Below are positions 17,587-38,849 of a DNA stretch of 64,000 bases, in pieces. The notes below the pieces were generated by a model. The model made no database searches and was not told the origin of the DNA. It was given only the letters and a program-made list of their open reading frames with translations. Both the position numbers and the translations under genes were made by a program. How positions within the stretch are numbered: the stretch's first letter is position 1; the number at the start of each line of letters is the position of its first letter. The DNA is taken from assembly GCF_020171625.1 (NCBI RefSeq), contig NZ_JAIUZY010000006.1, forward strand, positions 62,001 through 126,000, read 5' to 3'. This DNA comes from Salipiger bermudensis. Lineage in GTDB: Bacteria; Pseudomonadota; Alphaproteobacteria; Rhodobacterales; Rhodobacteraceae.

Positions 17587-19053
17587 TTACATGCCGGAGA
17601 CTTCGATGCTCTGGTCGTCGTCAAGGCGCTGAGCGGAGGGGAAATCGAACCCGGAGGCGTTCTCGACTTCTTCTTCGCTCATGGTCTCCACGACCAGCAC
17701 GTCGTTCTCGACCGAGACGCGGTCCATCGGCACCGGCACTTCCTTCGCACCAAGGCCGAGGAAGCCACCGCTGGTCAGCACCAGAACCGGCATGCCGTTC
17801 TCTTCAATGAAGCCGGCGGGGCGGCCGAGGTTCTCACCGTCCGAGGTCATCACGTCCTTTTCCATCAGCTCGCCGATGGTCATGGTCGTGGTGTTGCCGG
17901 CTTCGGCGTCTGCCATTTCGCCTTCGGCCATCTCGCCTTCGGCGCCTTCAGCGGCCTCGGTCCCTTCGGCGGGCTCGCCATCAGCGGTCAGCTGGGCCTG
18001 CTCATCGGTGGGCTGAGCGGTCTCGTCGCCCTGCGCCGGTGCCTGAGCCTGGGTCTGCTCCGAAAGACGCTGCTCGCGCTCTTCGGCGGTTTCGATGACC
18101 ACGTTGGCCTCGCCACCCTGCTGCACGTCGACGGTCGGGTCGTTCGCCATCACAACCGAGATACGGGGCTCGGACTTCTCGTAGGCCACGGAGGCTTCGC
18201 CGCCCTGAACGCTGATTTCCGGCTCGCCTTCGGCCTGCTGGATGTCCACCTGCGGCTCCGAGTCATCGACCGAGGTGTTGCCGGCGACGCTCTGGGTGTC
18301 GTTGCCGTCGGTGTCGGCGGTTTCGGTCTCGTCAGCCTCTTCACCGGCCTCGACGCCCAGATCCACGTTCAGTTCCGGGTCGGCCTGCACGACCGAGATC
18401 GTCGGCTCGCCCTGCTCGACCTGCACCTGCGGATCATCGGTGGAAATCTGCACGTCCGGGTCGGAGCTGAGGATGTAGACGTCCGGCGCCGGAATGTCGA
18501 CGCGCACGATGATCTCGGGGATCTCGACCTCGATGTTGGGCTGCTGCTGCGCGATCTGGATGTCGAGCGGGCTCTCGTTGACGGTCACGCGCGGCACTTG
18601 CTTCATCACGGTGACGTTCGGAGCAGGGACCTGCACGTCGACATCGGGCTCGGGGACTGTCACACGGGCCTGGCCTTCGATGGTGGCGCTTTCCGACAGG
18701 TTGACCTCCTCGGAGACGGTTTCGCTCTCTTCGGCTTGGGCCGTCGCGGTGTCTTCGTCCGTCTCGGTGGTTTCGTCGGTGGCGGTCTGCTCATCGCCCT
18801 GGGCGGCGATCGTCTCGGTGATCAGCGCGCATTCCTCGGGGTTGTCTTCGTCAACCGCGGCCATCACGTCGTTCATCGGAACAAGCGCCGGCAGTTCATC
18901 GCCGCGTGCGCTCTCGACGAGAGACTGGCATTCGGCGCTTTTGCCGCGAAGCTCTTCGTCCGAGATGGTGTCGAGGGTCTGGGCGGAGACAAAGCCGGCG
19001 AGCGGGAAGGAAAGCGCAGTGCTCAGCATCAGGGTGCGCGTGGCAAGTTTCAT
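17587..19053 (-). CDS. Secreted acidic nonapeptide-repeat protein with C-terminal PRC-barrel
   Basis: Exported protein of 488 residues. The order is a Sec signal peptide (1-24, cleavage near VSA-Q), a small globular segment with three Cys (25-85), an acidic Glu/Thr/Ala linker, then two blocks of about 9-residue repeats of pattern x-P-x-V-x-V (roughly 131-233, about eleven copies; 265-322, about six copies). These are separated by an acidic linker and followed by a Glu/Ala/Gln-rich region. A PRC-barrel-like domain lies at about 388-465 (TIGELMEKDVMTSDGENLG, VPVPMDRVSV). The repeats could form a beta-solenoid. Function is unknown; an envelope or stress role is inferred from export and the GGAAC-type promoter. 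Confidence 0.8.
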   Translation of the reverse strand: MKLATRTLMLSTALSFPLAGFVSAQTLDTISDEELRGKSAECQSLVESARGDELPALVPMNDVMAAVDEDNPEECALITETIAAQGDEQTATDETTETDEDTATAQAEESETVSEEVNLSESATIEGQARVTVPEPDVDVQVPAPNVTVMKQVPRVTVNESPLDIQIAQQQPNIEVEIPEIIVRVDIPAPDVYILSSDPDVQISTDDPQVQVEQGEPTISVVQADPELNVDLGVEAGEEADETETADTDGNDTQSVAGNTSVDDSEPQVDIQQAEGEPEISVQGGEASVAYEKSEPRISVVMANDPTVDVQQGGEANVVIETAEEREQRLSEQTQAQAPAQGDETAQPTDEQAQLTADGEPAEGTEAAEGAEGEMAEGEMADAEAGNTTTMTIGELMEKDVMTSDGENLGRPAGFIEENGMPVLVLTSGGFLGLGAKEVPVPMDRVSVENDVLVVETMSEEEVENASGFDFPSAQRLDDDQSIEVSGM

Positions 19054-19376
19054 GTGGTTGATTCCAATCCTGGTAAAGAAAGAGCCGCTGTGTGCGTGCC
19101 ATCTGAGAAAAGAACCGCCGATGCGGTTAACAGTTCCGAGAGAATTTTTTGGAAAATGCCGAAAAAGCGCGACCGGTCGCGCCGGTAATCAATTGAGACA
19201 GTGTATATATCTACGCAATTCTCGGAGAGGATGTGGTTGTCAAAGCGGGACTTACGCCGTTTCGCGACGCTTAGGGGGCATCGCAATTCGCGCGGTCGCG
19301 GGCTGGTCGCCGGCTCGTGAAATTAATTGAAAGCCGTAGGGTGCGGTCCCCGTTCCCCGCCAATTGCGGGCCCCGT
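19054..19376. other. Intergenic promoter region
   Basis: 323 bases between the repeat-protein start and the HWE kinase stop, both minus strand. It contains the GGAAC-N16-GGTT element and an AT-rich patch near 19185-19220. No gene was recognised. Confidence 0.5.
19113..19137 (-). promoter_or_regulatory. GGAAC-N16-GGTT promoter (general-stress/EcfG-like) for repeat protein
   Basis: On the minus strand GGAAC (19137-19133) and GGTT (19116-19113) are 16 bases apart, close to the alphaproteobacterial EcfG consensus GGAAC-N16/17-CGTT. It predicts a transcript start about 50 bases before the ATG at 19053. Confidence 0.6.
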
Positions 19377-20480
19377 TCAGGAGGGCTGGCGGTCCTGACC
19401 GCGTGTCTCGGCGTCGGTGAGCGAGAAGCAGTCCTTCGGCAGCTTGGCCCGCCATGCCACGCCGTCTGCGTCGTAGGTCAGGCTCGGACCGCTTCCGTCG
19501 GCCGCAAAGAACCCCGAGATCAGCGTGGTCCCGAGGCCCCGGCGCGTGGGCGCCTCGACCTGGGGGCCGCCGCTTTCGCGCCATGAAAGGTCAAGCGTGC
19601 CACTGTCCTCATCGGGCGACCACCCAACCTCGACCTTGCCGTCGGGCACGCTGAACGCGCCGTATTTCGCCGCGTTGGTGGCCAACTCATGGATGACGAG
19701 CGCGAGGTCGAATGCCACGGATTCCGTCAGCTCGACGGCGGGGCCATCCATCGCGATCTGCGCCCGGTCCGGCGCGTAGGGGGCGACGTGATCGCTCACC
19801 AGACGCGCGAGGGTGTTGTCGCCGCCTGTTTCGGTCGCGAGCCGGGTGTGGGCGTCGGAAAGGGTGCGCAGCCGCTCTCCGAACGCCAGGGTCAGCTCTT
19901 CGACGCTTTGCGAATTGCGCGCGGTCATCTTGAACAGCGAGCGCAGCACGGCGAGGCTGTTGCGGACGCGATGCCTCAACTCGCCGAGCAGGAAGGCGGT
20001 GCGCTTCTCTTCCTCCTCCAGACGCCGCACCAGATCACGCGTCCGGAACTGGCGCCTGCGGGTGCCGGCCAGCGTTCCGAGCAGCTTGCCAAGAACGGCG
20101 GGCGAGGCGGGGCGCTCGAGCAGCACGTAGGAGGCGGACTCGATGTCCCGGTCGAGCACAACACAGGCGGGCGGTGGCCGGACCGCGGCGCTTGCGAGGA
20201 TGAGGATCGGCAGGCGCGACCATTCCGGTTCGGCGTTCAGTGCCTCGACAAGGATGCCGCCGACCTCCGCGTCAGCGGCCTCGTGGCTCAGCACCACGAT
20301 GAGCGTCTCCGGCTGGTGCGGCGCGGCAAGACGCTCCGCGAGCTCGGACGCGCCGGACAGGCAGTGCGCAGGAAGCCCGCTCGCCTCGACGCATCGAGCG
20401 AGGGCGCTCGCATCGTTGCCCAGCGGGGCAAGGATGAGCACGGGGTGCGCCCCGTCGGTTCGCACTTCAGGATCCGCCAA
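19377..20480 (-). CDS. HWE/HisKA_2-family histidine kinase with N-terminal degenerate receiver-like domain
   Basis: Cytoplasmic kinase of 367 residues (TTG start at 20480; GTG at 20465 is an alternative). Residues about 12-135 have receiver-like alternation, but the acceptor position reads TLIVVLSHEA with no Asp, so this looks like a pseudo-receiver. A coiled segment leads to the phospho-acceptor region GELRHRVRNSLAVLRSL. The ATPase domain has HELATNAAKYGAFS (N box) and WRESGGP, the Trp-x-Glu feature of HWE kinases, then RGLGTTLISG. It overlaps the KaiC-like gene by up to 14 bases. HWE/HisKA_2 kinases often feed general-stress (PhyR) or light signalling; no such partner is in the window. Confidence 0.88.
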   Translation of the reverse strand: MADPEVRTDGAHPVLILAPLGNDASALARCVEASGLPAHCLSGASELAERLAAPHQPETLIVVLSHEAADAEVGGILVEALNAEPEWSRLPILILASAAVRPPPACVVLDRDIESASYVLLERPASPAVLGKLLGTLAGTRRRQFRTRDLVRRLEEEEKRTAFLLGELRHRVRNSLAVLRSLFKMTARNSQSVEELTLAFGERLRTLSDAHTRLATETGGDNTLARLVSDHVAPYAPDRAQIAMDGPAVELTESVAFDLALVIHELATNAAKYGAFSVPDGKVEVGWSPDEDSGTLDLSWRESGGPQVEAPTRRGLGTTLISGFFAADGSGPSLTYDADGVAWRAKLPKDCFSLTDAETRGQDRQPS

Positions 20481-21921
20481 GGTGCCCCGCCGACTTCGTC
20501 CGCGCCTCGGTCTCCTCCGAGATCTTGCGCACCTCGACCGCGCCGGGGCGGATCACCAGTTCTTGGATATTGCGCTTGTGATCGCCGTTGCGCTTCTTGA
20601 CCACGGCGATGGATCTGCGGATGTCCGCGCCGCTTTCGTATTGCCGCAACAGGATGACCGTGTCGGCAATGAAGCTGCTGTCGATCTCGGTTTTGGGCTG
20701 CTCGCCGAGCAGGCCGTGCTGCGACAGGGTCACGATCACCAGCACCTGTCGCCGTGTCAGGTGCTGGATGAGGGTGTGCAGATGCGTGATCGCGTGCTTC
20801 TGGTCCGGCAGCGCCTCGAGATACCCGGTGATGCTGTCGATCACCACCACGCGCGCGCCTTCGTCGACCGACTTCAGAACCGCGTTGGAAAATTCGCCCG
20901 GCGACAGTTCGGCGGGATCGAAGTGATTGAGAAGGATCCGGCCCGCCGCCTCCTGATCGTCGATCTCCAGACCAATACCAGCAGAGCGGCCGCGCAGCAC
21001 CTCGGGACGTTCCTCGAACAGGAACAGCGCCGCCGTAAGGCCGCGGTTCGCCGCATCTGCGCTCAGCACCGTCGCCATGGTGGACTTGCCGGTTCCCGAC
21101 TGCCCGGCGATCAGCAGCGAAGAGCCGAATTCGATGCCGCCGCCAAGCAGGGTCGCCAGCGCGTCGTGATGGGGGACCAGCCTCTCCTCGAGGTGGACAG
21201 GCTCGGCCTCGTGCGGAATGACCCTCGGATAGACGACCAGCCCGCCGGTTGCGATCTTGAAATCGTGGTAGCCCTGCGTGAAGGCCGCGCCGCGCAGCTT
21301 GGTGACCGACAGGCGCTGCTGCGGCACGCCGATCGTCGGGGTCAGCGTCTCAAGCTTGATGACGCCGTGCACGATGCCCTCGGCGTTGCGCTCGCCGCCG
21401 GCCGGTTCGAGGTGGTCGACCAGCAGGGACGTGGCTTCGACCTCGCGAAGCTTGCGGCGCAGAGAGAGCAGTTCCCGCCGGTAATGCGTCGGCGCATCCG
21501 ACAGCAGCCGCAGTTCCAGCAGGGAGTCGAACACGAAGAGGTCGGGTTTCGTCTCTTCCAGCGCCGCCCCGATCTGGTCCATGAGCTTCACCAGATCGGC
21601 TTGGTTGTTGTCCACCGAGAACACCCGTTCGTCGCCCGATGCGCCCAGCTCGGGGGTGTAGATGCAGATCTGATCGAGATCGAAGCCATGCGACCGGGCG
21701 ATCATGTCGAGCTCTGAACGGGACTGCGCGATGCTGAAGAACACCCCGCGCTTTCCCTGCTTCGCGCCTTCCACGAGAAACTGCAGCGCCAGGGTCGTCT
21801 TGCCGGTTCCGGGAGCGCCCTCGACAAGCATGATACGGCCCGTCGGATATCCCCCGTGCAGAACACGATCCAGACCCGAGATCCCGGTCGCGACGGTTTC
21901 TGCGAAGTCGGCTTTTGGCAT
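20467..21921 (-). CDS. KaiC-like double RecA-fold ATPase
   Basis: Cytoplasmic ATPase of 484 residues. The ATG at 21919-21921 is preferred; a TTG ten codons upstream is possible. Two RecA-like domains in KaiC order: the first has Walker A GAPGTGKT (about 35-42) but the catalytic Glu pair of KaiC CI is Ala-Gln (FFSIAQSRSEL). The second has GQSGTGKS and keeps Glu-Glu (FLFEERPEVL). Near the KaiC autophosphorylation site, the residue aligned with Ser431 is Ser, while that aligned with Thr432 is Phe. No KaiA or KaiB gene is nearby. It overlaps the HWE kinase, so the pair is probably a signalling module rather than a circadian clock. Confidence 0.88.
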   Translation of the reverse strand: MPKADFAETVATGISGLDRVLHGGYPTGRIMLVEGAPGTGKTTLALQFLVEGAKQGKRGVFFSIAQSRSELDMIARSHGFDLDQICIYTPELGASGDERVFSVDNNQADLVKLMDQIGAALEETKPDLFVFDSLLELRLLSDAPTHYRRELLSLRRKLREVEATSLLVDHLEPAGGERNAEGIVHGVIKLETLTPTIGVPQQRLSVTKLRGAAFTQGYHDFKIATGGLVVYPRVIPHEAEPVHLEERLVPHHDALATLLGGGIEFGSSLLIAGQSGTGKSTMATVLSADAANRGLTAALFLFEERPEVLRGRSAGIGLEIDDQEAAGRILLNHFDPAELSPGEFSNAVLKSVDEGARVVVIDSITGYLEALPDQKHAITHLHTLIQHLTRRQVLVIVTLSQHGLLGEQPKTEIDSSFIADTVILLRQYESGADIRRSIAVVKKRNGDHKRNIQELVIRPGAVEVRKISEETEARTKSAGHLGGS

Positions 21922-22065
21922 CCAGTGTTTCCCAATAGTGACATGCTGCAAATCTACCTGCGGACGCCGGCAGTCTGGGTGAACCCTAAAAGAGATTACC
22001 GGATTGATAAAGGCATCTCCCGGAAGGCGCCAAAACCGGGCGTTTCTGGTGCTTTGGGAGAGGCA

Positions 22066-22111
22066 GGGGGCCGCACCGCGTGGGGTGAAAACGCCCTCGC
22101 GGTCGGCCCCC
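22066..22111. terminator. Long GC-rich hairpin, possibly terminator of a small RNA
   Basis: Left arm 22066-22080 pairs with 22098-22111 with a single bulge, and GGG/CCC extends the stem inward across a GAAAA-type loop. It lies between divergent genes where no terminator is needed. On the plus strand it is followed by TTCGTCCGGTCTCTTAT, a modest T-tract. Confidence 0.45.
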
Positions 22112-22284
22112 TTCGTCCGGTCTCTTATATGGGTTGGTAGGACACGGGCCCGGGCATACGCCGCACGGCGGTTTGACAGAAGGTGGTACGGCCCCCGCGT
22201 TTCGCCACGCGCCTCAATCGCCCCTCATCGTTGCGCTCTGCCCCGTCGTTTCGGGGGCCGCTAGGCGCGCGCCTGAGTTTTTTC

Positions 22285-22310
22285 GGAACACGATCGCCAA
22301 GCGCATGGTT
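22285..22310 (+). promoter_or_regulatory. GGAAC-N17-GGTT promoter (general-stress/EcfG-like) for paoABC
   Basis: GGAAC (22285-22289) and GGTT (22307-22310) are 17 bases apart and face paoA, with the -10-like half about 60 bases before the ATG at 22371. It resembles the EcfG-type promoter, with GGTT in place of CGTT. Confidence 0.55.
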
Positions 22311-22370
22311 CTGGCTCTGGGAACGCCGCGCATCGTGCGGTTCGAAGCCACCTTCATAAAGGAGAGCCAA

Positions 22371-22877
22371 ATGCGCACACGTTTCACAGTGAACGGTGAG
22401 CCCCGCGAGGTCGAGCACGACACGCGCGCCACCCTTCTCGACATCCTGAGGGACCAGCTTGGCCTGACCGGGACGAAGAAAGGCTGCGATCACGGCCAGT
22501 GCGGCGCCTGCACGGTGATGGTCAACGGCAAGCGGGTCAATTCCTGCCTTTGCCTCGCCGCCATGCATGAAGACGACGAGATGACGACGATCGAGGGGCT
22601 CGGCAGCCCCGAAGCGCTCAGCGCGCTGCAAAAGGCATTCGTGTCGCAGGACGGCTACCAGTGCGGCTTCTGCACGCCGGGCCAGATCGTGTCGGCCACC
22701 GCGATGCTGGAAGAGTTGCGCGCCGGCGACCCGTCCTACGCCTCGGCCTCGCTCGAGGGGGAGATGGCGCTCGATGACGCCGAGATCGCCGAGCGCATGA
22801 GCGGCAACCTCTGCCGCTGCTCGGCCTACCCGCTGATCCGCGAAGCCATCGCCATGGCCGCCGAGGTGAAATCATGA
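22371..22877 (+). CDS. paoA: Aldehyde oxidoreductase 2Fe-2S subunit, PaoA/YagT-like
   Basis: Iron-sulfur subunit of a molybdenum hydroxylase, 168 residues. An N-terminal plant-type [2Fe-2S] domain has Cys in [15 protein letters not shown] and NSC; a C-terminal all-helical [2Fe-2S] domain has CGFCTPGQ and [11 protein letters not shown] 22371 follows GGAGAG. Unlike E. coli PaoA there is no twin-arginine leader, even in the frame upstream, so the complex should be cytoplasmic. It overlaps paoB by 4 bases and passes electrons from the Mo centre to FAD. Confidence 0.9.
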
Positions 22878-23896
22878 GGGAATTCGATTACACGCGCGCC
22901 GAGACCCTCTCCGGGGCCGCAGACCAGCTTGGCGAGGATGCGAGCGTCATCGCGGGCGGCACCAACCTGCTGGACCTGATGAAGATCCAGGTGATGACCC
23001 CGTCGCGGCTGGTCGACATCACCCGGATCGATGGCCTGAGCGATATTTGCGAGGACGGTGAGGGCCTGCGCATCGGCGCGCTCGTCACCAATTCCGAGCT
23101 GGCCGCGGACCCCCGCGTTCGGGACGGGTGGCCGCTGCTGTCGCGCGCCATCCTTGCCGGCGCCTCGGCCCAGATCCGCAACAAGGCGACCACGGGCGGC
23201 AATCTCCTGCAGCGCACGCGCTGTCCCTATTTCTACGACACCGCCATGCCCTGCAACAAGCGCAACCCCGGCGAGGGCTGCTCGGCGAAACAGGGCGACG
23301 GGCGGATGCTGGCGATCTTCGGCACCTCCGAGCACTGCCTTGCGGCGCACCCCTCGGACATGGCGGTGGCGCTGGCGGCGCTGAAGGCCGAGGTGGAAAT
23401 CCGTTCGGCTGAGGGCGATGCCCGCCGCATTCCGATCGGCGAGCTTCACAAGCTGCCGGGCGACCGCCCGGACATCGAGACCGTTCTGGCCCCGGACGAG
23501 ATCATCACCGCCGTGTATCTTCCCGCGCCGCAGGCTGACACGAAGCAGGTCTACAAGAAGGTGCGTGACCGCGCGTCCTATGCCTTCGCGCTGGTGTCGG
23601 TCGGCGTGGCCGTCGCGATGGACGACGACCGGATCGCTTCGGTCTCCTGCGCGATCGGCGGCGTCGCTCCGAAGCCGTGGACCGATCCGGAGCTCGAAAA
23701 GGCGCTTGTCGGTCAGGCCCCCTCCGACGAGGTTTTCGGTCAGGCCGCTGACAAGGCGCTGACGCAGGCCCGCTGCCAATCTGATACCGAGTTCAAGAAG
23801 CCGCTGCTGCGGCGCACCCTGATCGCCGCGCTGCGCGAGGCCACCGGCCTTGCCGTGTCAGCGCCCGGCGTCGAGACCGCGAGGATCCCGGCATGA
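22874..23896 (+). CDS. paoB: Aldehyde oxidoreductase FAD subunit, PaoB/YagS-like
   Basis: FAD-binding subunit (CoxM/PaoB type) of 340 residues. The FAD loops are [13 protein letters not shown] near 30-45 and [12 protein letters not shown] near 110-120. A Cys-rich insertion ([19 protein letters not shown]) matches the extra [4Fe-4S] cluster known in PaoB and 4-hydroxybenzoyl-CoA reductase. Coupled by 4-base overlaps to paoA and paoC. Confidence 0.9.
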
Positions 23897-26088
23897 CCAA
23901 GACATTCCGCATGGACGAGGCGCAGCCGCGCCTTCTGGACGAAACCGGGCAGGGCATCGTCGGCGCGCCGCTCGACCGGCCCGAGGGGCCGAAGAAGGTG
24001 TCGGGCCGCGCGGCCTACGCCGCCGACGGGCTGCCCGAGAACGCCGCGCACGGCGTGCTGGTGCGCGCCACCATCGCGCAGGGCCGCGTCACCAAGATCG
24101 ACGAGTCCTCGGTCTCGGACGTGTCGGGACTGCTGGGCGTGTTCCACGGCCCGAAGATGACCCGCAACCCGGCGCAGGGCATGGCGGGGGAAGCCCCGGT
24201 CCAGCCCGGCGACGAGGTGCATTATCACGGCCAGCCGATCGCGCTGGTGGTGGCCGAGAGCTTCGAGGCCGCACGCGACGCCGCGCAGCGGCTGGCGGTC
24301 AGCTACGACGCCGACACCGACGTGATCACAGACCCCTCCCGCAGTGAGACGCACGAGCAGGACGACCCCGAGACCGCGGGCGATTTCGAAGCGGCCTTCG
24401 CGGCGTCCGAGGTGACGCTCGATCGCACCTACACGACCCCGCCCCACGCGGCGGCGGCGATGGAGCCGCACGCGGCGGTCGCGGAATGGGAGGGCGATGC
24501 GGTCACGCTCCGCGGCGCGCTCCAGATGCTGCGCTTCAACAAGAAAGAGCTGGCGGACTCGCTGGGGATCGACCCCGATAAGGTGCGCATCCTTTCGCCC
24601 TATATCGGCGGCGGCTTCGGCTCGAAGCTGGGTATCGGCCCGGAGGCGGTCGCTGCCGCGCTGGCGGCGCGCGAGCTGGGGCGCCCGGTGCGGGTGGTGA
24701 TGACCCGGCAGACCGTGTTCGACAGCGTGCTGCGCCGCACCGAGACCAGCCAGCGGCTGCGTCTGGGCGCCGACAAGGACGGCACGCTGCGCGCGCTCTC
24801 GCATGACGATCGCGTGTCGAACATCCGCGACGAAGGGTTCGCCGAGCCGGTGAGCCAGGCCTCGCAGTTCCTCTACGGTGCCGAGGGCCTCAGCTTCACC
24901 CAGACGCTCGCACGGATCTGTCGCACGCCGGCCGGTTCCGTCCGCGCGCCGGGCGAGGCGGTGGGGATGCTGGCGCTGGAACAGGCGATGGACGAGCTCG
25001 CGGAAGAGCTGGGCATGTGCCCGGTCGAGTTGCGCCTGAAGAACCTGCCGGACAAGAACCCGATGACCGACCAGCCGTTCAGCGCCACGCGTCTGGCCGA
25101 CTGCCTGCGCGAAGGCGCCGAGCAGTTCGGCTGGGGCGAGCGCAAGCCGATGGGCGAGCGCCGCGAAGGCGACTGGTATGTCGGCATGGGGATGGCGTCT
25201 GCCGCGCGCTCGAACATGCTGATCAAGTCTGCCGCACGGGTGCGCCTGACCGGCGACGGCGCGGTGGTCGAGACCGACATGACCGATATCGGCACCGGCA
25301 GCTACGCCATCCTCGGCCAGATCACCGCCGAGATGCTCGGCCTTCCGATTGCGCAAGTCGAGGTGCGCCTCGGCGACACCAGCTTCCCCGGCGCCTCCGG
25401 GTCCGGCGGCTCCTTCGGGGCGAGCTCCGCCGGCTCGGCGACGTTCCTCGCCGCGAAGGCGATCCGGGAAACGCTGGCCGAGCGCATGGGGTGCAGCCTG
25501 TCCGAGCTGACCCTGCAGAACGGCATCGCGCGCGGCGGCAACCGCGAGGTTCCGCTCTCGCAGCTGGTCGACGGAGAGCTCGTCGAGGAAGCCAGCGTCG
25601 AGTCGGGCAGCACCGCCGACAGCCACTTCTCGGCCGGGTTCGGGGCACATTTCGCCGAGGTGGCGGTGCATGCCTACACCGGCGAGGTGCGGGTGCGGCG
25701 GATGCTTGGCGTGATGGCCATGGGCCGCATCCTCAACGAGAAAACCGCGCGCTCGCAGGCGCTTGGCGGGATGATCTGGGGCATCGGCTCGGCTCTGACC
25801 GAGAAGCTCACGCATGATCCGCGCACCGGCCATCTGGCGACGCGCGATCTTGCCAACTACCACGTGCCCGCCCATGCGGACGTGCCGGGCGACCTGAAGG
25901 TGGTGTTCCTCGAAGAGCGCGACGACATGGCGAACCCGATCCAGACCAAGGGGATCGGCGAGCTGGGTATTTCCGGCGCCGGCGCCGCGATCCTCAACGC
26001 GGTGCGCAATGCGTGCGGTGCGAGGGTCTACGACATGCCGGCGACGCCGGACCGCGTCATCACTGCGATGGACGCCGCGGGCTTCTGA
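23893..26088 (+). CDS. paoC: Aldehyde oxidoreductase molybdopterin-binding subunit, PaoC/YagR-like
   Basis: Catalytic subunit of the xanthine oxidase family, 731 residues, oxidising aldehydes to acids at a molybdopterin cytosine dinucleotide Mo centre. It shows the N-terminal ald_xan_dh_C domain ([19 protein letters not shown]) and cofactor segments such as [11 protein letters not shown] and [18 protein letters not shown]. The active-site Glu is in [18 protein letters not shown] near the C-terminus. Length is normal for PaoC. It needs a dedicated chaperone (PaoD/XdhC type), which is not adjacent here. The substrate range cannot be read; detoxification of aldehydes is the family role. Confidence 0.9.
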
Positions 26089-26095
26089 GATACGG

Positions 26096-26126
26096 CCTCC
26101 CGCCGCTGCGGCGGCGGGAGGCACCT
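26096..26126 (+). terminator. Terminator-like hairpin after paoC
   Basis: GCCTCCCGCCGC, a TGC loop and GGCGGCGGGAGGC form a perfect GC-rich stem within 15 bases of the paoC stop. There is no T-run behind it. Confidence 0.6.
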
Positions 26127-26638
26127 CGCGCCTCTGGCTTGAGAGGGCGGCGGGGCGCATTCTTCTATTTATTGAGACCTACTGCGCTCAGGGGGGCGGA
26201 CGTGTTCCGACCTCCTGAGCGTATTTGCACGGCGATGAACCAGATCTAATGCGACGATTCCAAAGCGGCGACGATCTCGGTCCGCGCTTTGCCTGCAGCA
26301 TCCAAGACCGGCCAGAATGAGCGAGGGGCGACCCGTGGGCCGATCGCTAGATTATTATATGGACGAGAGGTCGTTGGGCGCGCGCGCGGCGATGTTACAC
26401 CAAGCTTCCAATGAAGGAAGGAGCGGTGCGGTCGATGGGCATCGCGAAGGCCGAGCCAGAATGATGTCTCGGTCCCACGCGACACGATCAATCGGCCAGT
26501 AGGGATGTGAAGATAGCAAGCGCGCGCGGTACTCTCGGCATCGCGCGTCGCCGAGTAGGAGATTGTTGGTTAAGGAAGGGGCGGTGATGTCAGATGCACC
26601 GCCAGGTCTTCGCTAGTCTCGGGATGCCTTTCCCCTGC
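26127..26638. other. Intergenic region, no supported gene
   Basis: About 510 bases between convergent genes. It is locally AT-richer (e.g. around 26340-26360 and 26160-26175). A minus-strand frame (26246-26491, 81 codons) is open but has no start signal or family that I can name. Confidence 0.45.
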
Positions 26639-26977
26639 TCACCCCGCACCCAGCAACAGGAAAAGGCCAATCGCCAGAACGGCCACGAGCACGATGACCA
26701 CAACGATGCCGGGCCCGCGGGTGCGTTGCAGCTCGGCGGGGGTCTTCTTGGGTTCGCTGGAGTCCTGGGCAGCACGCTCGGCCTCGCGCGCGTCAGCCAT
26801 TGCGGCGGGGTCCGTCGGGGTGCCACCGGCTTCGGCGTCGGTGCCCAGAGGCACGGCTGCGGGATCGGAGAAGGCGGCCTTTTCACCGGTGGCGCCCCGA
26901 TCGATGTCGTCGCGAAGCTTTGCGGCTTCGGCGCCGCCACCGCGCGGCGTCGCGCGCTTGTCGTTGTCGACTGGCAT
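26639..26977 (-). CDS. Small C-terminally anchored membrane protein
   Basis: A 112-residue protein of unknown function. Residues 1-88 are hydrophilic, rich in Ala, Asp, Glu and Pro and probably disordered; a single membrane helix (about 89-109, VVVIVLVAVLAIGLFLLL) ends just before the C-terminus, so the soluble part would face the cytoplasm in a tail-anchored topology. The start is supported by CCGGAGGA upstream. A GGAAC-type promoter precedes it, as for the neighbouring envelope operon. Confidence 0.7.
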   Translation of the reverse strand: MPVDNDKRATPRGGGAEAAKLRDDIDRGATGEKAAFSDPAAVPLGTDAEAGGTPTDPAAMADAREAERAAQDSSEPKKTPAELQRTRGPGIVVVIVLVAVLAIGLFLLLGAG

Positions 26978-27013
26978 AGGATGTCCTCCGGTTTGAGTGA
27001 CGGTTCATGGGCC

Positions 27014-27038
27014 AACCCCCTGACAGCGCAATCGTTCC
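27014..27038 (-). promoter_or_regulatory. GGAAC-N16-GGTT promoter (general-stress/EcfG-like) for small membrane protein
   Basis: Minus-strand GGAAC (27038-27034) and GGTT (27017-27014) are 16 bases apart. The -10-like half lies 37 bases before the ATG at 26977, leaving a leader of about 28 bases. Confidence 0.6.
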
Positions 27039-27345
27039 GCCCCCTGCTCGCAGCACTCCTACGCGGTGTGAGAGCGGGCTTGATCGCTCGACTGCGCTTG
27101 CGGATCAGGTCTGCCGGGCCCGTCGCCGAACTGGCAGGGCGCCATGCCACACCGCCCCTTAGGTGCGTCGGGCGTGTTTAGCCGTATTTGCCGATCCGGC
27201 ATGGTCGCCTTCGAGGGAAAAGAGGCGAGCTCGCGCAGCGCTTCGACCGTAGAGAACCGGCTCCCGACATATTGGGGAAGCAACCTCTGCCGCCCCCGAT
27301 CCGACACACCGCAAACCTGCCGATTGGACATCTGCACATATATAA

Positions 27346-27372
27346 GCACCCGCAACATCGTTGCGGGTGCTG
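27346..27372 (-). terminator. Terminator of the DUF3618 operon
   Basis: Perfect 12-bp arms AGCACCCGCAAC / GTTGCGGGTGCT with a 3-base loop start 23 bases beyond the stop at 27395. TATATATG follows on the minus strand. Confidence 0.75.
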
Positions 27373-27394
27373 GGGTCATACGAGAGGCGAAAAA

Positions 27395-28492
27395 TCAGCT
27401 GCGGGGGCCGAGATCTTCCTTCGCGGCCTTGTCGCGGGCGGCGTCGGCCACGCGCTCAACCGCATCCTCGACGCGATCCACGGCGGCATCGGCTGCGGAG
27501 CCTTCGCCGGGCGTTTCGCGATCCGCCGCGTCCTTCATCTTGCGGCTGGCCTCATCCGCATCGCGGCGCAGTTCTTCACCCACGGTGCGCGCCTCGTCCA
27601 AGGCGGCCCCGGCCACGCGTTCGGCCTTCGCCCGCTCCTCGTGGTAGACGGCCTCGGCCTCGTCATAAAGCCGGTCGCTGTACTCGCCGAAATGCTCGTC
27701 CTCGAACTTGGTGCGCGGCAGGGCGCTGGCCGTGAGGGCCCCGGCGGCGAGCGCGAGCGCGCCGACGATCAGCGGGTTCTCTTCGAAGAAGTCGACGGCC
27801 TTGTCGGCGCCGTCGCGGGCGCGGCGATTGACGTGCCCGCCAGCGCGGCGCAGGCTCTCGCCGGCGAGGATCGCGCGTTCACGGGCCGCGATGACGCGTT
27901 CGCGGGCCTCGGCGTTCATCCGTTCGGTGCCTTCCGAAAGCTGGGCGGCGATCTCTTTCGAACGGTCCCGCACCCTGGCGCCACCACGTGCGGCCCCGTC
28001 CTTGGCAGCATCCGCATGGTCGGATGCGGTTTGTGCGCCGTGGTGCAGGTAGTTCTCGGTACGGTACCACTTGGCCTTGGCCTTTTGCGAGGCCGACAGA
28101 CCCTGCGACGGCGGGCCGACTTCGCCGGCCGGAACCGGACCGCGCGGCGGGGTGAAGCTGGCATCGGTGGGATTGCCATAGCGCGGATCGTCCTCGCCTT
28201 TCGCCGAGACGCGGGTCGCGCTGTCGGCGATGCGGTCGGCCGAGGGGCCCTTGCCGATCATCAGCCAGCCGAGACCGACCGCGGTGACGCCGAGCGCCAG
28301 CGGGTTGGCACGGGCAGCCTCCATGGTCGACTTGCCGAAATCGCTGCCGTGACGACCGAGATTGTCGGTCAGGCTGCGGAAGAGGGTGTCGGGGGTGAAG
28401 GTCGATTCAAGCGAGCGGATGGTGCTCTGCAACTCAGCGCGGTTGCGTTCCAGCTCGTGTTCGATCTCGTCGGGGGTGCGTCTGTCAGTCAT
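27395..28492 (-). CDS. DUF3618 domain membrane protein
   Basis: A 365-residue protein. The N-terminal DUF3618 region (about 1-50; TPDEIEHELERNRAELQSTI) is followed by a short hydrophobic segment near 85-100 (NPLALGVTAVGLGWLMIG) and a long charged, Ala-rich, probably helical region. A second hydrophobic stretch (NPLIVGALALAAGALTA) lies near 240-256, and the tail is rich in Glu, Arg and Ala. It is last in a three-gene operon and overlaps the upstream gene by 8 bases. Family function is unknown; the context suggests envelope stress. Confidence 0.82.
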   Translation of the reverse strand: MTDRRTPDEIEHELERNRAELQSTIRSLESTFTPDTLFRSLTDNLGRHGSDFGKSTMEAARANPLALGVTAVGLGWLMIGKGPSADRIADSATRVSAKGEDDPRYGNPTDASFTPPRGPVPAGEVGPPSQGLSASQKAKAKWYRTENYLHHGAQTASDHADAAKDGAARGGARVRDRSKEIAAQLSEGTERMNAEARERVIAARERAILAGESLRRAGGHVNRRARDGADKAVDFFEENPLIVGALALAAGALTASALPRTKFEDEHFGEYSDRLYDEAEAVYHEERAKAERVAGAALDEARTVGEELRRDADEASRKMKDAADRETPGEGSAADAAVDRVEDAVERVADAARDKAAKEDLGPRS

Positions 28493-28913
28493 TGCTCATT
28501 TCCTTTACGACGACGTCGCGATCCCGCTCGAGGTTACGACGGGTCCGGGTCGGTGCGAGCGAGGCGAGCTTGAGGCTGCCCTGGCCCGATTTCACGAGGA
28601 TCAGCGCGATGATGAACAGCACGCCTCCGACGATCACGGCCGACCACAGCGGCGAAAGACCGGCTTCCGCGATCGCGGCCACGGCGGCCCCGGCAAGCAC
28701 GTTGAGTGCGACCAGCAGAAGGACAATGCCCCCTACCATCATGCCCACGGCGGTGCCGGCCTTTTTCACGTTCTGGTCAAGCTCGGCGCGGAACAGGTCC
28801 ATCTCGCCGCGCATCAGCGCGATGATCTGCTGGATCGCTTGGCTGAGCAGGTTGCCCGTGTCGCGGATGTGGGTGCGCTCGCCCTGCGGCGTGCGGGTAT
28901 CGGTGTCGGACAT
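28485..28913 (-). CDS. DUF1469/holin-X-like membrane protein (phage holin superfamily name only)
   Basis: A 142-residue protein. An amphipathic N-terminal half (LLSQAIQQIIALMRGEMDLF) is followed by two membrane helices (about 53-77 and 85-108) and a basic cytoplasmic tail. This is the layout of the DUF1469/YqjE family, which databases place in a phage holin superfamily; nothing around it is phage-like. It overlaps the DUF3618 gene by 8 bases and the upstream gene by 1. Confidence 0.8.
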   Translation of the reverse strand: MSDTDTRTPQGERTHIRDTGNLLSQAIQQIIALMRGEMDLFRAELDQNVKKAGTAVGMMVGGIVLLLVALNVLAGAAVAAIAEAGLSPLWSAVIVGGVLFIIALILVKSGQGSLKLASLAPTRTRRNLERDRDVVVKEMSND

Positions 28914-29500
28914 CAGTTGTCTCCCGGCGTGAGGTGATTGGCGGGGATCGCGGGCGTCGCCATGGCGTCATCGGTGCGGGTGCCCGGTGCGGTGGCGGGC
29001 GCCGCCGTCGGCGTGCGCGGCTGGGCCGGAGCCGGAGCCGAAAGCGCGTCGTCGTGCGCGGTTTCGTCGGGGCGGCCGTGGCTCGAGGCCCGGGCGAACC
29101 GCGTCGCGGCGAAGCCGGTCAGCGCGGCGCCTGCGAGGAACCCGAACGGGTTGCGGCGGGCGAAGGCGCTGACATCGGAGGCGAGATCGGCGAGATCCCG
29201 GTCGCGGATGGCGTCGGACATGCTGGAAAAGCTGGTCGCTGCTTTGCCGAAGGCCTGTTCCTGCGCCGAGCCGCCGCGGAGTTCCGAGGCCGCGGTGCTC
29301 AGGGCGTGCGCGATCGAGGACAGCTCGGAGGCAACACCCGTCTTGGCGCGATCGGCCTGGTGGCTGGCCTCTTCGCGTGCGCGGCTGCTCACGCTTTCGG
29401 CGGCGTCGCGGGCGTCCTGATGAAGGCGTTCGGCAGAGCGCTTCAGGTCGTCGCCTGCCTCCTTCCCGACATCGCGGGGAGTGTCATCGGTGTGTTGCAT
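28913..29500 (-). CDS. Stress-type amphipathic-helix protein, first gene of envelope operon
   Basis: A 195-residue protein beginning MQHTDDTPRDVG (ATG at 29498-29500). A charged heptad-like region (about 20-100; SAERLHQDARDAAESVSSRA) resembles proteins labelled nutrient-deprivation-induced. A short hydrophobic segment (NPFGFLAGAALTGFAA, about 123-138) precedes a Pro/Ala/Thr-rich low-complexity C-terminus. An upstream in-frame ATG at 29680 is rejected because the added segment is not protein-like. It is first in the operon with the DUF1469 and DUF3618 genes. Confidence 0.75.
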   Translation of the reverse strand: MQHTDDTPRDVGKEAGDDLKRSAERLHQDARDAAESVSSRAREEASHQADRAKTGVASELSSIAHALSTAASELRGGSAQEQAFGKAATSFSSMSDAIRDRDLADLASDVSAFARRNPFGFLAGAALTGFAATRFARASSHGRPDETAHDDALSAPAPAQPRTPTAAPATAPGTRTDDAMATPAIPANHLTPGDN

Positions 29501-29681
29501 GTCGCTCTCAGTCTGTTTCTGGTTGCGGCGGGGAGCCGAAACCGGGTTGCCGTTTGAAGCCGGATCCGCCGCGCGAGCGTCTGGGCAAACCAAGGCCGTC
29601 CCGTCGACGCTGGGTCGATGGAGAAGCCGCGTATAAGCTTGGTAGGCGGCCGGGCCGCGATCCGTGTGGTTATGTTTCATT

Positions 29682-29707
29682 AACCCCGCGGCGGTCGGTG
29701 GGGTTCC
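29682..29707 (-). promoter_or_regulatory. GGAAC-N17-GGTT promoter (general-stress/EcfG-like) for envelope operon
   Basis: Minus-strand GGAAC (29707-29703) and GGTT (29685-29682) are 17 bases apart. It lies about 180 bases upstream of the ATG at 29500, farther than the other three copies, so the leader would be long or the real start further upstream. Confidence 0.5.
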
Positions 29708-30195: not shown

Positions 30196-31344
30196 ATGCT
30201 GACCCGGAGAGCCGCCCTGATGGGCGCTGCGGGGATCGCCGCGATCCCAGTGCTGGCAAAGGCCGCGAAGGCCGAGGAAATCATGGACACCTCGATCGCG
30301 GAGTCGGCGGACGTGTCCAGCCTTCAACGCATCAAGCGCCGGCTGGTGCGGCCGCCGATGGTCCACGAGCACGAGCAGATCGCCCCGGCAGAGCCGCGCA
30401 TCGTCGAGTTCGAGATGCAGATCGTCGAGAAGGAGGTCGAGGTCGACAGCGGCGCCTACCTGCAGGCGATGACCTTTAACGGCTCGATCCCGGGTCCGCT
30501 GATGGTGGTGCATGAAGGCGATTACGTCGAGCTGACGCTCTACAATTCGCCCGAGAACCTCATGCAGCACAATATCGACTTCCATTCCTCCACCGGGGCC
30601 CTCGGCGGCGGATCTCTGACGCTGGTGAACCCGGGCGAGAAGACCACGCTGCGATGGAAGGCCACGCGCCCCGGCACCTTCGTCTACCACTGCGCCCCCG
30701 GCGGCCCGATGATCCCGTGGCACGTGGTCAGCGGGATGTCGGGCGCCGTCATGGTTCTGCCCCGCGGCGGTCTCACCGATCACAAGGGCGATCCGGTGAG
30801 CTATGACAAGGTGTTCTACATCGGCGAGAACGACTTCTACATTCCGAAGGACGAGAATGGCGAATACAAGCGCTTCGCCGATGTGGGCGAGAGCTATCCC
30901 GACACGCTCGAGGTGATGAACGGCCTGATCCCCACCCACGTGGTGTTCAACGGCAAGGTCGGCGCGCTGACCGGCGACAACGCGCTGCACGCGCGTCAGG
31001 GCGAGAAGGTGCTGTTCGTGCACAGCCAGGCCAACCGCGACACCCGCCCGCACCTGATCGGCGGCCATGGCGACCTCGTCTGGGAGAGCGGCAAGTTCAA
31101 CAACCCGCCGGAACGCGATCTCGAGACCTGGTTCATCCGAGGCGGCTCGGCCGGGGCGATGCTCTACGAATTCCTCCAGCCCGGGGTCTATGCCTACGTG
31201 AACCACAACCTGATCGAGGCGGTGAACCTTGGCGCGACGGCACACGTGGTGGTCGAGGGCGAGTGGAACAACGACCTGATGGAGCAGGTGCAGGCGCCGG
31301 TCGAATACGACGCGGCCTATGAGGGCAAGACAGCTCTGCCATAA
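30196..31344 (+). CDS. nirK: Copper-containing nitrite reductase (NO-forming)
   Basis: Periplasmic denitrification enzyme that reduces nitrite to NO, 382 residues. A twin-arginine-type leader ([20 protein letters not shown]) is followed by two cupredoxin domains. Copper ligands are visible in [16 protein letters not shown] (type 1 and type 2 His), [20 protein letters not shown] (type 1 Cys, His and Met, plus type 2 His) and [10 protein letters not shown] (type 2 His from the second domain). The start is ATG 30196 with AAGGAGAC before it. nirV follows in the same direction. Expression is predicted to depend on NnrR through the box at 30115. The electron donor is likely the pseudoazurin encoded at 40.5 kb. 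Confidence 0.96.
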
Positions 31345-31438
31345 GGCGCCGCGGCGCCCCTCGGTAGGGGCGCCGGGATAAGGAGACGCGGGGCGGTGGG
31401 CGCAGGCCGACCGCCCCGTCTGTGTCAGGAGGCTTGCC

Positions 31439-32245
31439 ATGAAACCGTTTCTCTTCGTCGCAGGGGCCACCGCGCTGGCGCTGCTTGTGGCGGCTCCCCT
31501 GATGCTGGCAAGGCACGACGCGGCGGAGGCCCCCTTCGCCCCCGTCGCGCTTGTCGAGGTGCCGGGCGGGTCGATCGCGTATCGTCCGTTCGGGAGCTTT
31601 TCCCGCGCGGCCCGGAGCGTGGCGCCCGACCCGGTCGCGCGCGACATCGCAGGTTTCGAGATCATGAAGTATCAGGTCACCCGGGACCAATACGCGGCCT
31701 GCGTCGCGGCGGAGGCCTGCGCGAAGGTGTCCCCAACCGGCGGCGGGGTGCCTCAGACCGGGGTCAACTGGCAGGATGCCACGGATTTCGCGCGGTGGTA
31801 TTCCAAGGTCAGCGGCGAAAGCTGGCGCTTGCCGACGGCGATGGAATGGCAGCACGCAGCAGCGGAGCGCTATGGCGATGCCACCGTGGCCGGGGGCGAT
31901 CTCGATCCCGGCGAGCGGATGCTGGCGAACTACCGGGCCGGCGTCCTGTTGCGGGGCACCGCGAGCCCGGCGCTGCGGCCGACCGGCAGTTTCGGCGTGA
32001 ATTCCCGGGGATTGGCGGACGTGTCGGGCAATGTCTGGGAGTGGACCGATACCTGCATGGAAAGGGGCACGCTGAACGACGACGGCTCGATCGCCGCGAG
32101 CGAGCCCTATTGCTGGGTCCGGATCGCGGGCGGCATCCACCGGGCCGCCATCGTCGACATCGTGCGCGATGCCAGCGTCGGCGGCTGCGCGGTCGGCCTG
32201 CCGCCGGATCACCTGGGCTTCCGGCTGGTGAGGGCGTCGGAGTAG
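31439..32245 (+). CDS. nirV: NirV, formylglycine-generating-enzyme-like protein
   Basis: A 268-residue protein of the SUMF1/FGE-sulfatase family that accompanies nirK in rhodobacters. An N-terminal hydrophobic segment (3-23) acts as a signal or anchor. The FGE-like fold is marked by FEIMKYQVTRDQYAAC, VNWQDATDFARWYSKVSGE, WRLPTAMEWQHAA and the late DVSGNVWEWTD. Its role in nitrite reduction is not established. The gene lies 94 bases after nirK and is probably cotranscribed. Confidence 0.9.
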   Translation: MKPFLFVAGATALALLVAAPLMLARHDAAEAPFAPVALVEVPGGSIAYRPFGSFSRAARSVAPDPVARDIAGFEIMKYQVTRDQYAACVAAEACAKVSPTGGGVPQTGVNWQDATDFARWYSKVSGESWRLPTAMEWQHAAAERYGDATVAGGDLDPGERMLANYRAGVLLRGTASPALRPTGSFGVNSRGLADVSGNVWEWTDTCMERGTLNDDGSIAASEPYCWVRIAGGIHRAAIVDIVRDASVGGCAVGLPPDHLGFRLVRASE

Positions 32246-32305
32246 CCACGACGGGCAAAGCGGCTTTGGCGGCGCCGAGGTAGCCCTCCCGGCGCCGCGG
32301 GTGCC

Positions 32306-33661
32306 TCACGATGCCTGACTGAAACGCGCCCCTTCGGGAACATGGGCATCGAACTGGCGCGCGATGATCCGGGTCAGGGCGCGTACCTCCGGCGGGATCG
32401 ACACCATCGTACCGCTGCCCTCGACCATGTCGCCGAAGCGCTCGCGCAGCAGGGCAACCTCGGGGCGCAGCGCGTCCACAGCATCACCGTGGGCCTCCCG
32501 CAGAGCCTCGAGGTCCAGTCGGAAATCGCACATCAGCATCTCGATCGCGCGGGCCCGAAGGAGATCGTCCTCGGTCATCACGTGGCCCCGCGCGCCGGCC
32601 AGCTCTCCGGCCTCGATGCGCTGGACATAGGCCGGCGTGGCGGCGGCGTTCTGGATGTACTCGGTGGGCAGGCGCGAGATCGAAGAGGCCCCGAGGCCGA
32701 TGAGCGTGGCGCAGCTGTCATCCACATAGCCCTGGAAATTTCGGCGCAGGCGACCGCTCTGCGCGGCCACGGCGAGGCCATCTTCGGGGCGGGCGAAGTG
32801 GTCGATGCCGATGCTCTCAAGCCCCGCCTCCACGAACCGGCGCGCCGCCCGCTCGGAAAGCCGATAGCGCTCGAGATCCTTGGGCAGGGCGTCCTCGTCA
32901 ATCAGCTGCTGACGCTTCGACATCCACGGCACATGGGCGTAGCCGAAGAGCGCGATGCGGTCGGGCGACAGCTCCAGCACCTTGGACACGGTGTCATCCA
33001 GCCGCGCAAGGTCCTGATGCGGCAGGCCATAGACGAGGTCCGCGTTCAGCGAGCGGATGCCGGCTGCGCGCAGGTCCGCGACGCAGTCGCGCGTCATGTC
33101 GAAGGGCTGCAACCGGCCGATGGCTTGCTGCACCTCCGGGTCGAAATCCTGAATTCCGATGCTGGCGCGGTTCATGCCTTCGGCGGCCAGCGCGGCGACC
33201 TTGTCGCCATCCACCATGGTGGGGTCGATCTCGACCGAGAATTCCCAGTCATCCGTGTGCGGGATCACCGCCTTCACCGCGCGGGCCAGCCGGTGGATCA
33301 GGGAAGGCGGCAGGATCGTCGGCGTGCCGCCGCCCCAATGCATCCGGCCCATGCGCAGCCCGTCGGGCAGGGTGCTGGCGAGCAGGGCCAGCTCCTGTTC
33401 CAGCGTGCCGATGTAGCTTTCCACCGGGCTCAGGGTCTTGGTTCCCTGCGTGCGGCAGGCGCAGAACCAGCAGAGCCGCTCGCAGAACGGAATGTGGATA
33501 TAGACCGACACGGGGTCTGCCGGGTTCAGCGCGGCAAGAGCCGTCGCCTGTACTGTGGCGCCCACGTTGGGCGAGAACACCGGAGCGGTGGGATAGGAGG
33601 TATAGCGGGGCACCCGGGTCTCGAAGAGGCCGAAGGATCTGAGGCGGTCGATCTGTTTCAT
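32306..33661 (-). CDS. hemN: Oxygen-independent coproporphyrinogen III oxidase
   Basis: Radical-SAM enzyme of anaerobic haem synthesis, 451 residues. TSYPTAPVF near the N-terminus and the cluster motif CERLCWFCACR (CxxxCxxC plus the additional conserved Cys) are intact, followed by HWGGGTPT and the SAM-binding segment SVEIDPTMVDGD. The C-terminal HemN domain is complete. ATG at 33659-33661 is chosen by homology. An FNR/NnrR-type box ends 34 bases upstream. It supplies haem for NorBC when oxygen is low. Confidence 0.95.
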   Translation of the reverse strand: MKQIDRLRSFGLFETRVPRYTSYPTAPVFSPNVGATVQATALAALNPADPVSVYIHIPFCERLCWFCACRTQGTKTLSPVESYIGTLEQELALLASTLPDGLRMGRMHWGGGTPTILPPSLIHRLARAVKAVIPHTDDWEFSVEIDPTMVDGDKVAALAAEGMNRASIGIQDFDPEVQQAIGRLQPFDMTRDCVADLRAAGIRSLNADLVYGLPHQDLARLDDTVSKVLELSPDRIALFGYAHVPWMSKRQQLIDEDALPKDLERYRLSERAARRFVEAGLESIGIDHFARPEDGLAVAAQSGRLRRNFQGYVDDSCATLIGLGASSISRLPTEYIQNAAATPAYVQRIEAGELAGARGHVMTEDDLLRARAIEMLMCDFRLDLEALREAHGDAVDALRPEVALLRERFGDMVEGSGTMVSIPPEVRALTRIIARQFDAHVPEGARFSQAS

Positions 33662-33695
33662 GCGCCCGGTATGCAGCTTTCCGGCGCCCCGGACT

Positions 33696-33709
33696 TTGCG
33701 CCGGATCAA
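33696..33709 (-). promoter_or_regulatory. FNR/NnrR-type box upstream of hemN
   Basis: On the minus strand it reads TTGAT-CCGG-CGCAA, one FNR half and one NnrR half. It is centred at 33702.5, exactly 41.5 bases from the A of the hemN ATG, so a class II start would coincide with the start codon (leaderless) unless a different promoter geometry is used. Confidence 0.7.
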
Positions 33710-33711
33710 GG

Positions 33712-34404: not shown

Positions 34405-34619
34405 GATCCCTCCGCCCGTTTCTTCAGCCGTTCGATGTGGCAGGCGAAGGCATAGGTGGCGGGTAGGCCGATGACCAGACCTCCGGCGGCAGCCTGCCAC
34501 GGGGTCAGGACCGGCCAGCCCAGCCACGAGCCGATCAGCGAGGCGAAGAACAGGTTCACCCCCATTGCGCCGGCCCCGAACGGATACAGCGCGGCGACAA
34601 GTCTCACGGAGGGTCTCAT
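34401..34619 (-). CDS. Small membrane protein between norD and nnrU (NnrT-like)
   Basis: A 72-residue protein with two hydrophobic helices (about 7-30 and 37-60) and a basic C-terminus (ERLKKRAEGS). The start ATG (34617-34619) overlaps the stop of the 57-residue gene in an ATGA junction, which rules out the longer in-frame start at 34637. By position it corresponds to nnrT of R. sphaeroides; I cannot confirm the sequence match. Confidence 0.75.
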   Translation of the reverse strand: MRPSVRLVAALYPFGAGAMGVNLFFASLIGSWLGWPVLTPWQAAAGGLVIGLPATYAFACHIERLKKRAEGS

Positions 34620-34789
34620 CGCCGGCTGACCATCCATTGCACCGCCGCCAGCGCCACGACGAGCGCGATGGAGCCGATCAGGAACCAGAACTCCGCCGTG
34701 TCGGTCTGCGGCTGCGGGATGGGGCGGTCGAAGGCCTCGGCGAAGGCCGGGGCGGGAAGGATCGTGGCAAGGGCGAGAATGCGTTTCAT
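34616..34789 (-). CDS. 57-residue membrane protein in nor operon
   Basis: A very short gene: signal-like N-terminus (MKRILALATILPAPAFAEAF), a proline-rich linker (RPIPQPQTDT) and one membrane helix (about 33-51, FWFLIGSIALVVALAAVQW) ending in MVSRR. It starts 1 base after the norD stop and overlaps the next gene by 4 bases, so it is tightly held in the operon. It could be NorF-like or a second NnrT-like protein. Function unknown. Confidence 0.72.
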   Translation of the reverse strand: MKRILALATILPAPAFAEAFDRPIPQPQTDTAEFWFLIGSIALVVALAAVQWMVSRR

Positions 34790-34790
34790 G

Positions 34791-37468: not shown

Positions 37469-37471
37469 CGA

Positions 37472-38827: not shown

Positions 38828-38849
38828 TGATGTGTCTCCTGTTTCCCGA

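Follow-up and report, generated by a model that had tools for sequence, protein, structure and literature searches.

Four GGAAC-N16/17-GGTT elements of Salipiger bermudensis as probable EcfG-type general-stress promoters

A 64,000-nucleotide stretch of Salipiger bermudensis DNA (positions 62,001 to 126,000 of contig NZ_JAIUZY010000006.1, assembly GCF_020171625.1; hereafter the window) contains a block of genes in which four transcription units are preceded by short elements of the form GGAAC-N16/17-GGTT. A preliminary description of this DNA, made from its letters alone, had likened these elements to the promoters recognized by EcfG, the extracytoplasmic function (ECF) sigma factor of the general stress response, with GGTT in place of CGTT, and had proposed that they define a local stress regulon. 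Here we describe the block and evaluate this proposal by comparative analysis of related genomes.

Organization of the block

A pattern scan of the window recovered exactly four matches to GGAAC-N16/17-GGTT, at the positions previously assigned to them and nowhere else, and each faces the gene for which it had been named (Table 1). All four agree with the definition of an EcfG-type box (GGAAC, NGTT with C or G preferred as the first base, and a spacing of 16 to 17 base pairs, bp); the CGTT form of the element does not occur within the 64-kb window. The genes behind the elements encode a protein with a PRC-barrel domain, three subunits arranged in the gene order of PaoABC (with PaoA and PaoC scores that stay under the equivalog cut-offs), a small membrane protein, and the products of a three-gene envelope operon. 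An apparent operon for a KaiC-like ATPase and a histidine kinase is also present, and the Pfam match of the latter bears out the earlier statement that the block encodes an HWE kinase.

Table 1. Predicted promoters and genes of the block in the window, and genes of the PhyR locus (positions preceded by L032)
Feature	Position	Strand	Details
EcfG-type promoter (predicted), PRC-domain gene	19113..19137	-	-35 GGAAC 19133-19137; spacer 16; -10 GGTT 19113-19116; 59 bp from -10 end to ATG (19053)
EcfG-type promoter (predicted), paoABC	22285..22310	+	-35 GGAAC 22285-22289; spacer 17; -10 GGTT 22307-22310; 60 bp from -10 end to ATG of paoA (22371)
EcfG-type promoter (predicted), small membrane protein	27014..27038	-	-35 GGAAC 27034-27038; spacer 16; -10 GGTT 27014-27017; 36 bp from -10 end to ATG (26977)
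EcfG-type promoter (predicted), envelope operon	29682..29707	-	-35 GGAAC 29703-29707; spacer 17; -10 GGTT 29682-29685; 181 bp from -10 end to ATG (29500)
488-amino-acid protein, C-terminal PRC-barrel domain	17587..19053	-	Pfam PF05239, 30.8 bits (cut-off 21.2)
HWE histidine kinase	19377..20465	-	Pfam HWE_HK, 69.5 bits; no sensor domain by Pfam
KaiC-like ATPase	20467..21921	-	Pfam KaiC, 210.3 bits; apparent operon with HWE kinase
paoA-like [2Fe-2S] subunit	22371..22877	+	NCBIfam PaoA is best match, 250.6 bits (below equivalog cut-off of 322)
paoB-like FAD subunit	22874..23896	+	best NCBIfam matches are xanthine oxidase family FAD subunits, under cut-offs
paoC-like molybdenum subunit	23893..26088	+	NCBIfam PaoC is best match, 767.4 bits (below equivalog cut-off of 1180)
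112-amino-acid protein	26639..26977	-	hydrophobic stretch at the C-terminus (judged by eye); without a Pfam family
Envelope operon gene 3, DUF3618 protein	27395..28492	-	PF12277 at its cut-off, 24.9 bits
Envelope operon gene 2, Holin-X membrane protein	28485..28913	-	PF07332, Pfam 90.9 bits
Envelope operon gene 1, 195 amino acids	28913..29500	-	no Pfam family
HisKA_2 kinase	L032 4956-6713	-	beside NepR, sigma factor and PhyR
ECF sigma factor (EcfG-type)	L032 6809-7363	-	on another contig than the window
NepR	L032 7360-7530	-	over Pfam cut-off
PhyR	L032 7646-8446	+	PhyR_sigma2, PhyR sigma-like and receiver domains

In 100 dinucleotide shuffles of the window the motif turned up 0.53 times on average, and a single shuffle reached the observed number of four. 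The genome as a whole (4.74 Mb in 39 contigs) contains 63 matches, that is 0.85 per 64 kb, and the earlier estimate of about one chance match per window was hence a fair one. This background rate favors the view that the elements are nothing but chance matches in G+C-rich DNA. When the 63 genomic matches were placed at random, 407 of 20,000 placements put four of them within 10.6 kb, so that the clustering of the four elements, taken alone, is only moderately significant evidence.

Conservation of the elements in related genomes

The strong evidence for the elements lies in their conservation among relatives. Thirty homologues of paoA were fetched in score order; the 11 closest, delimited by a cut of at least 65% identity that was set after looking at the data, all carry a correctly oriented GGAAC-N16/17-NGTT element 48 to 91 bp upstream (10 of 10 when our own copy is left out), compared with 1 of the 19 remaining homologues. 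The reverse strand, which served as a control, gave one match in each group (1/11 and 1/19), and shuffled sequences yielded the element at rates of 0.6 and 0.3% per sequence, respectively. Seven of the -10 boxes among the 11 closest homologues read GGTT, three CGTT and one TGTT. When the upstream sequences of these 11 are aligned, the two boxes stand out while the spacer varies; row L097 is misaligned.

For gene 1 of the envelope operon we used 80 named loci, several of which come from one genome or genus; 79 were testable, locus L143 being dropped because it starts at a contig end. Genes 2 (Holin-X) and 3 (DUF3618) adjoin gene 1 in 79 of the 80 loci. An oriented GGAAC-N16/17-NGTT element lies within 300 bp of 49 of the 79 homologues; the reverse strand has one in a single homologue of the 79, and shuffling yields 0.7% per sequence. 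Over 50 sites the -10 boxes comprise CGTT (16), GGTT (15), TGTT (13) and AGTT (6). A search of relatives found the element before eight of nine envelope homologues (seven of eight without our own). To judge by identical coordinates of their PhyR matches, S. aestuarii (G002), S. pallidus (G003) and S. marinus (G016) are present both in our sample of the genus and among the named envelope loci, and these searches are therefore not independent of each other.

The gene for the small membrane protein is preceded by a GGTT element in three of four homologues from the search of relatives (two of three without our own copy), and likewise in both homologues situated near the envelope operon, those of Actibacterium naphthalenivorans and S. 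aestuarii, at a distance of 36 bp; the S. aestuarii gene is counted in both sets. Three of the top four homologues of the PRC gene, our own included, carry the element (two of three without it), and in the two orthologues that are 75-76% identical it takes the form GGAAC-N16-TGTT, at a distance of 60 bp. Two PRC loci, L085 and L087, were excluded because each is a further piece of a gene that had been counted before. Conservation before orthologues holds for all four genes and is weakest for the PRC gene.

The data just described bear directly on a chance origin of the elements. Each of the four has the right placement, and relatives retain the motif despite differing spacers; for the paoA and envelope sites a chance origin is already largely refuted by this conservation. 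We consider it highly improbable for the four elements.

A PhyR-NepR-EcfG locus with its own promoter

The preliminary description had named the lack of an EcfG/PhyR-type system as a finding that would undo its proposal. Instead, the genome has a locus at which nepR, the gene for an EcfG-type sigma factor, phyR and a HisKA_2 kinase gene lie together (Table 1), and genes for DUF1328 and PLDc_N membrane proteins are also found near them. PhyR exceeds both the Pfam and the NCBIfam cut-offs for this protein. The sigma factor exceeds the NCBIfam cut-off of families named just "RNA polymerase sigma factor"; that it is EcfG we infer from its place beside nepR and phyR and from its match to the PhyR sigma-2 model, none of the models that it matched being named EcfG. 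A second EcfG with a preference for GGTT was entertained as a candidate and rejected, since the EcfG query gave one close match in the genome.

Full-length PhyR is encoded in all 20 genomes of the genus, and in each of them, our own included, phyR is preceded by the promoter GGAAC-N16-CGTT, 33-36 bp before the ATG (36 bp in our own copy). Among ten more distant genomes, an NGTT-form element stands before phyR in eight, and an element on the opposite strand, toward nepR-ecfG, in all ten. Of the 20 genus genomes, 0 have the exact element in the phyR intergenic region on the side toward nepR-ecfG. On this side GGAAC-N17-CATT can be seen by eye in our own genome (L031:1692-1721, minus strand); CATT is a -10 variant in Sphingopyxis, and GCAAC is a reported variant of the EcfG -35 box (PMC7083833). 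Near the PhyR locus, a pair of GGAAC-N17-GGTT elements stands back to back, one on each strand (L032:2466-2517, corresponding to G000:C7:120465-120516), and one of them ends 33 bp before another PRC-barrel gene (L032:2551-3237).

We tested 50 of the 80 envelope loci (25 with and 25 without the exact element) for PhyR and found the full-length protein, at no less than 58% identity, in all 50 genomes; for comparison, among genomes of the family that lie outside the genus, PhyR is present in 8 of 17, although these samples are not matched. Eight of the nine genomes with an envelope homologue in the search of relatives also have PhyR.

Earlier studies support the view that the elements resemble EcfG promoters with GGTT substituted for CGTT. 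The EcfG consensus GGAAC-N16-17-C/GGTT has been applied in Rubellimicrobium thermophilum (PMC12148442). Up to 14 different putative -10 boxes have been reported for the Sphingopyxis regulon, GGTT being among the most frequent after CGTT, and a GGTT promoter was assayed in vitro with both EcfG1 and EcfG2 (PMC7083833). Since each of the four bases occurs in the first position of the -10 box, GGTT counts as a normal variant; the box is not unusual and has already been published as an EcfG variant.

One may ask if the elements serve some other ECF sigma factor whose -35 box is similar, EcfG being uninvolved. GGAAC-like -35 boxes are common to several ECF groups, and the next-closest matches of the EcfG-type sigma factor in its own genome are two ECF-like proteins that resemble it weakly (24 and 27% identity). 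We regard this explanation as very unlikely, given that the same type of element precedes phyR itself throughout the genus, that PhyR was present in every tested genome with the envelope gene, and that several of the sampled genomic sites described below precede familiar general-stress genes.

By analogy with the known pathway, NepR would hold EcfG in the absence of stress; under stress, an HWE/HisKA_2 kinase would phosphorylate PhyR, and phosphorylated PhyR would remove NepR from EcfG. RNA polymerase containing EcfG would then initiate transcription shortly after the GGTT (or CGTT/TGTT) box. Within the block, the targets would be the PaoABC-like aldehyde oxidoreductase, the envelope operon (gene 1, Holin-X, DUF3618), the PRC-domain protein and the small membrane protein.

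Genome-wide distribution of the promoter type

In the genome of S. bermudensis, GGAAC-SGTT (CGTT or GGTT) occurs at a spacing of 16/17 bp 148 times in the forward and 85 times in the reversed pattern; at the control spacing of 21/22 bp the corresponding numbers are 89 and 144. We analyzed the placement of 90 of the 148 sites (the first listed, on contigs C1, C3, C4 and C5) and of 30 of the 89 control-spacing sites relative to genes called with a home-made program, which renders the placement figures rough. The gene caller was trained on 20 stretches of 20 kb that had been hand-picked with the site list in view and are thus not random; they contain no GGAAC-N16/17-SGTT site as compared with about 12 expected, and their motif and control-motif counts were set aside.

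Forty of the 90 SGTT sites are intergenic and have a called start within 250 bp in the right orientation, compared with 2 of 30 sites with control spacing. Promoter placement was found for 31 of 56 CGTT sites, 9 of 34 GGTT sites and 439 of 8348 random positions; for GGTT against the control spacing, Fisher's test gave p = 0.04. The modest GGTT fraction counts in favor of a chance origin of the four elements. Across the genus, 19 of the 20 genomes have more GGTT matches than matches to the reversed control (1171 versus 864).

Pfam families were determined for 17 of the 40 genes behind placed sites. Ten of these had been chosen as resembling stress families and form an unfair sample: DUF892, Pmp3, ExoD, DUF883, ferritin-like, BLUF, topoisomerase IB, CsbD, a short-chain dehydrogenase and one gene without family. 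The first eight are families of general-stress regulons. The seven further genes, all behind GGTT sites, comprise a BON domain protein, a glycosyl transferase, a COX2/cytochrome c protein, a helix-hairpin-helix protein and three without family.

These data also bear on the possibility that the block forms a self-contained local regulon, in which the KaiC-HWE kinase operon would respond to a signal and switch on these four promoters in particular. The genes of the HWE kinase and the KaiC-like ATPase are flanked by two of the targets, and HWE/HisKA_2 kinases are known inputs of the general stress response (PMC12148442). However, the promoter type occurs genome-wide, no EcfG-type element is present within 250 bp upstream of either gene of the kinase operon, and among the 80 envelope loci (up to 6 kb on each side) an HWE kinase was found in seven and KaiC in one. 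We therefore judge a separate local circuit to be very unlikely. What stands of the earlier proposal of a local stress regulon under an ECF sigma factor is that the elements are very probably stress promoters of the EcfG type; its local character does not stand, in that the regulon extends over the whole genome, and the block is a modest cluster within it and no separate local system.

A search for relaxed boxes in front of other genes of the window yielded a few candidates, the most plausible being GCAAC-N16-CGTT, 26 bp before a CitMHS-type transporter gene (13258-15039, minus strand). The block is adjoined by a denitrification-like cluster (30196-40888) with genes for a multicopper oxidase, an FGE-domain protein, NnrU, a NorQ-like ATPase, a COX1-type subunit, a cytochrome c, a Crp/Fnr regulator and a cupredoxin.

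Discussion

We propose, with a probability that we put at roughly 90%, that the four elements act as promoters in the general stress response known from Alphaproteobacteria. This view draws on the conservation of the boxes in front of orthologous genes, on the PhyR-NepR-EcfG locus with its own promoter of the same type, and on the placement of like sites elsewhere in the genome.

Several observations weigh against this interpretation. The exact element is missing within 300 bp of 30 of the 79 envelope-gene homologues, and relaxed boxes gave no signal in these 30 (7 on the forward and 13 on the reverse strand). PhyR is nonetheless present in the 25 tested genomes without the envelope element, and in Limimaricola, where the envelope gene and PhyR are both found, all seven loci (L188, L191, L193, L194, L196, L198, L199) are without the element within 300 bp. 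Conversely, genome G051 has a distant envelope homologue (35% identity) and no full-length PhyR match. As to the PRC gene, the orthologue L079 (50% identity) lacks the element, distant PRC domain matches have it in none of eight cases (reverse strand, one of eight), and PRC homologues near the envelope operon have it in one of six; beyond the three closest copies, our own included, it was found before one of seven homologues.

The genome-wide data also contain adverse points. Raw genome counts are weak evidence because the reversed control is unstable (85 versus 144), and a start facing the opposite way lies within 250 bp of 16 of the 90 sites (CGTT 11/56, GGTT 5/34; control 2/30). In this genome, GGTT alone is a weaker predictor of promoter placement than CGTT; eight of the nine genes behind placed GGTT sites were scanned, and the stress families recognized among them were just DUF892 and BON. 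Over the whole family, GGTT counts set against the reversed pattern do not separate genomes with PhyR (1620 versus 1532, 28 genomes) from those without it (605 versus 632, 9 genomes).

The envelope, small-protein and PRC genes have no match in genomes G018 and G019, whose PhyR proteins are 95-96% identical to our own, yet they are present, together with the element, in species less related than these two. Because of this distribution, and because the envelope gene is found with PhyR in all 50 of the named and eight of the nine relatives-search genomes, the block might be a stress island that is accessory in a lineage of Rhodobacterales. Its modules, which close sister species lack, would each bring an EcfG promoter with them, and a newly acquired gene could thereby plug at once into the general stress response of its recipient; envelope and aldehyde defence would then be a main output of this response in the order. 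We offer this reading tentatively, at somewhat less than even odds, and the sister species may instead have lost the modules rather than others having gained them.

The elements share with known EcfG promoters the -35 box, the spacing, the -10 variants including GGTT and the set of regulators; here, the argument is made by conservation. In Sphingomonas melonis Fr1, the top EcfG-dependent genes include one with a PRC-barrel domain, preceded by GGAAC-N17-GGTT, and those for large, middle and small subunits of the CO-dehydrogenase type (PMC6599016). The motif scores of the latter (8.05-9.05) are below that paper's cut-off of 10 for likely direct targets (PMC6599016), and we liken them to PaoABC by type. 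Our literature search found no paper that joins PaoABC with EcfG, and the words Salipiger and DUF3618 appear in none of the matches listed from the respective searches.

Rhodobacter sphaeroides belongs to the same order, Rhodobacterales. As in S. bermudensis, its genes for a sigma factor and a sensor kinase lie beside phyR on the opposite strand, and its PhyR has a role in membrane stress and no major role in general stress (PMC5830050). The term GGAAC is absent from the main text of that paper, according to which, as of 2018, the stress role of PhyR had been analyzed in no member of the Rhodobacterales before (PMC5830050). Judged by title, a literature search for Rhodobacteraceae gave nothing on the subject, and among the matches listed for Rhodobacterales or Roseobacter, PMC5830050 was the one on PhyR in this order.

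The general stress response seems to be little studied in Rhodobacterales, with few papers found, among them that on Rubellimicrobium (PMC12148442). The stress system itself is known; the useful part of our analysis is a list of probable targets, above all the envelope operon. A predicted EcfG-type promoter before this conserved three-gene operon in many Rhodobacterales genomes provides a concrete target set, paoABC as a target would add aldehyde detoxification, and the envelope operon as a target could explain a role of PhyR in membrane stress such as that seen in R. sphaeroides.

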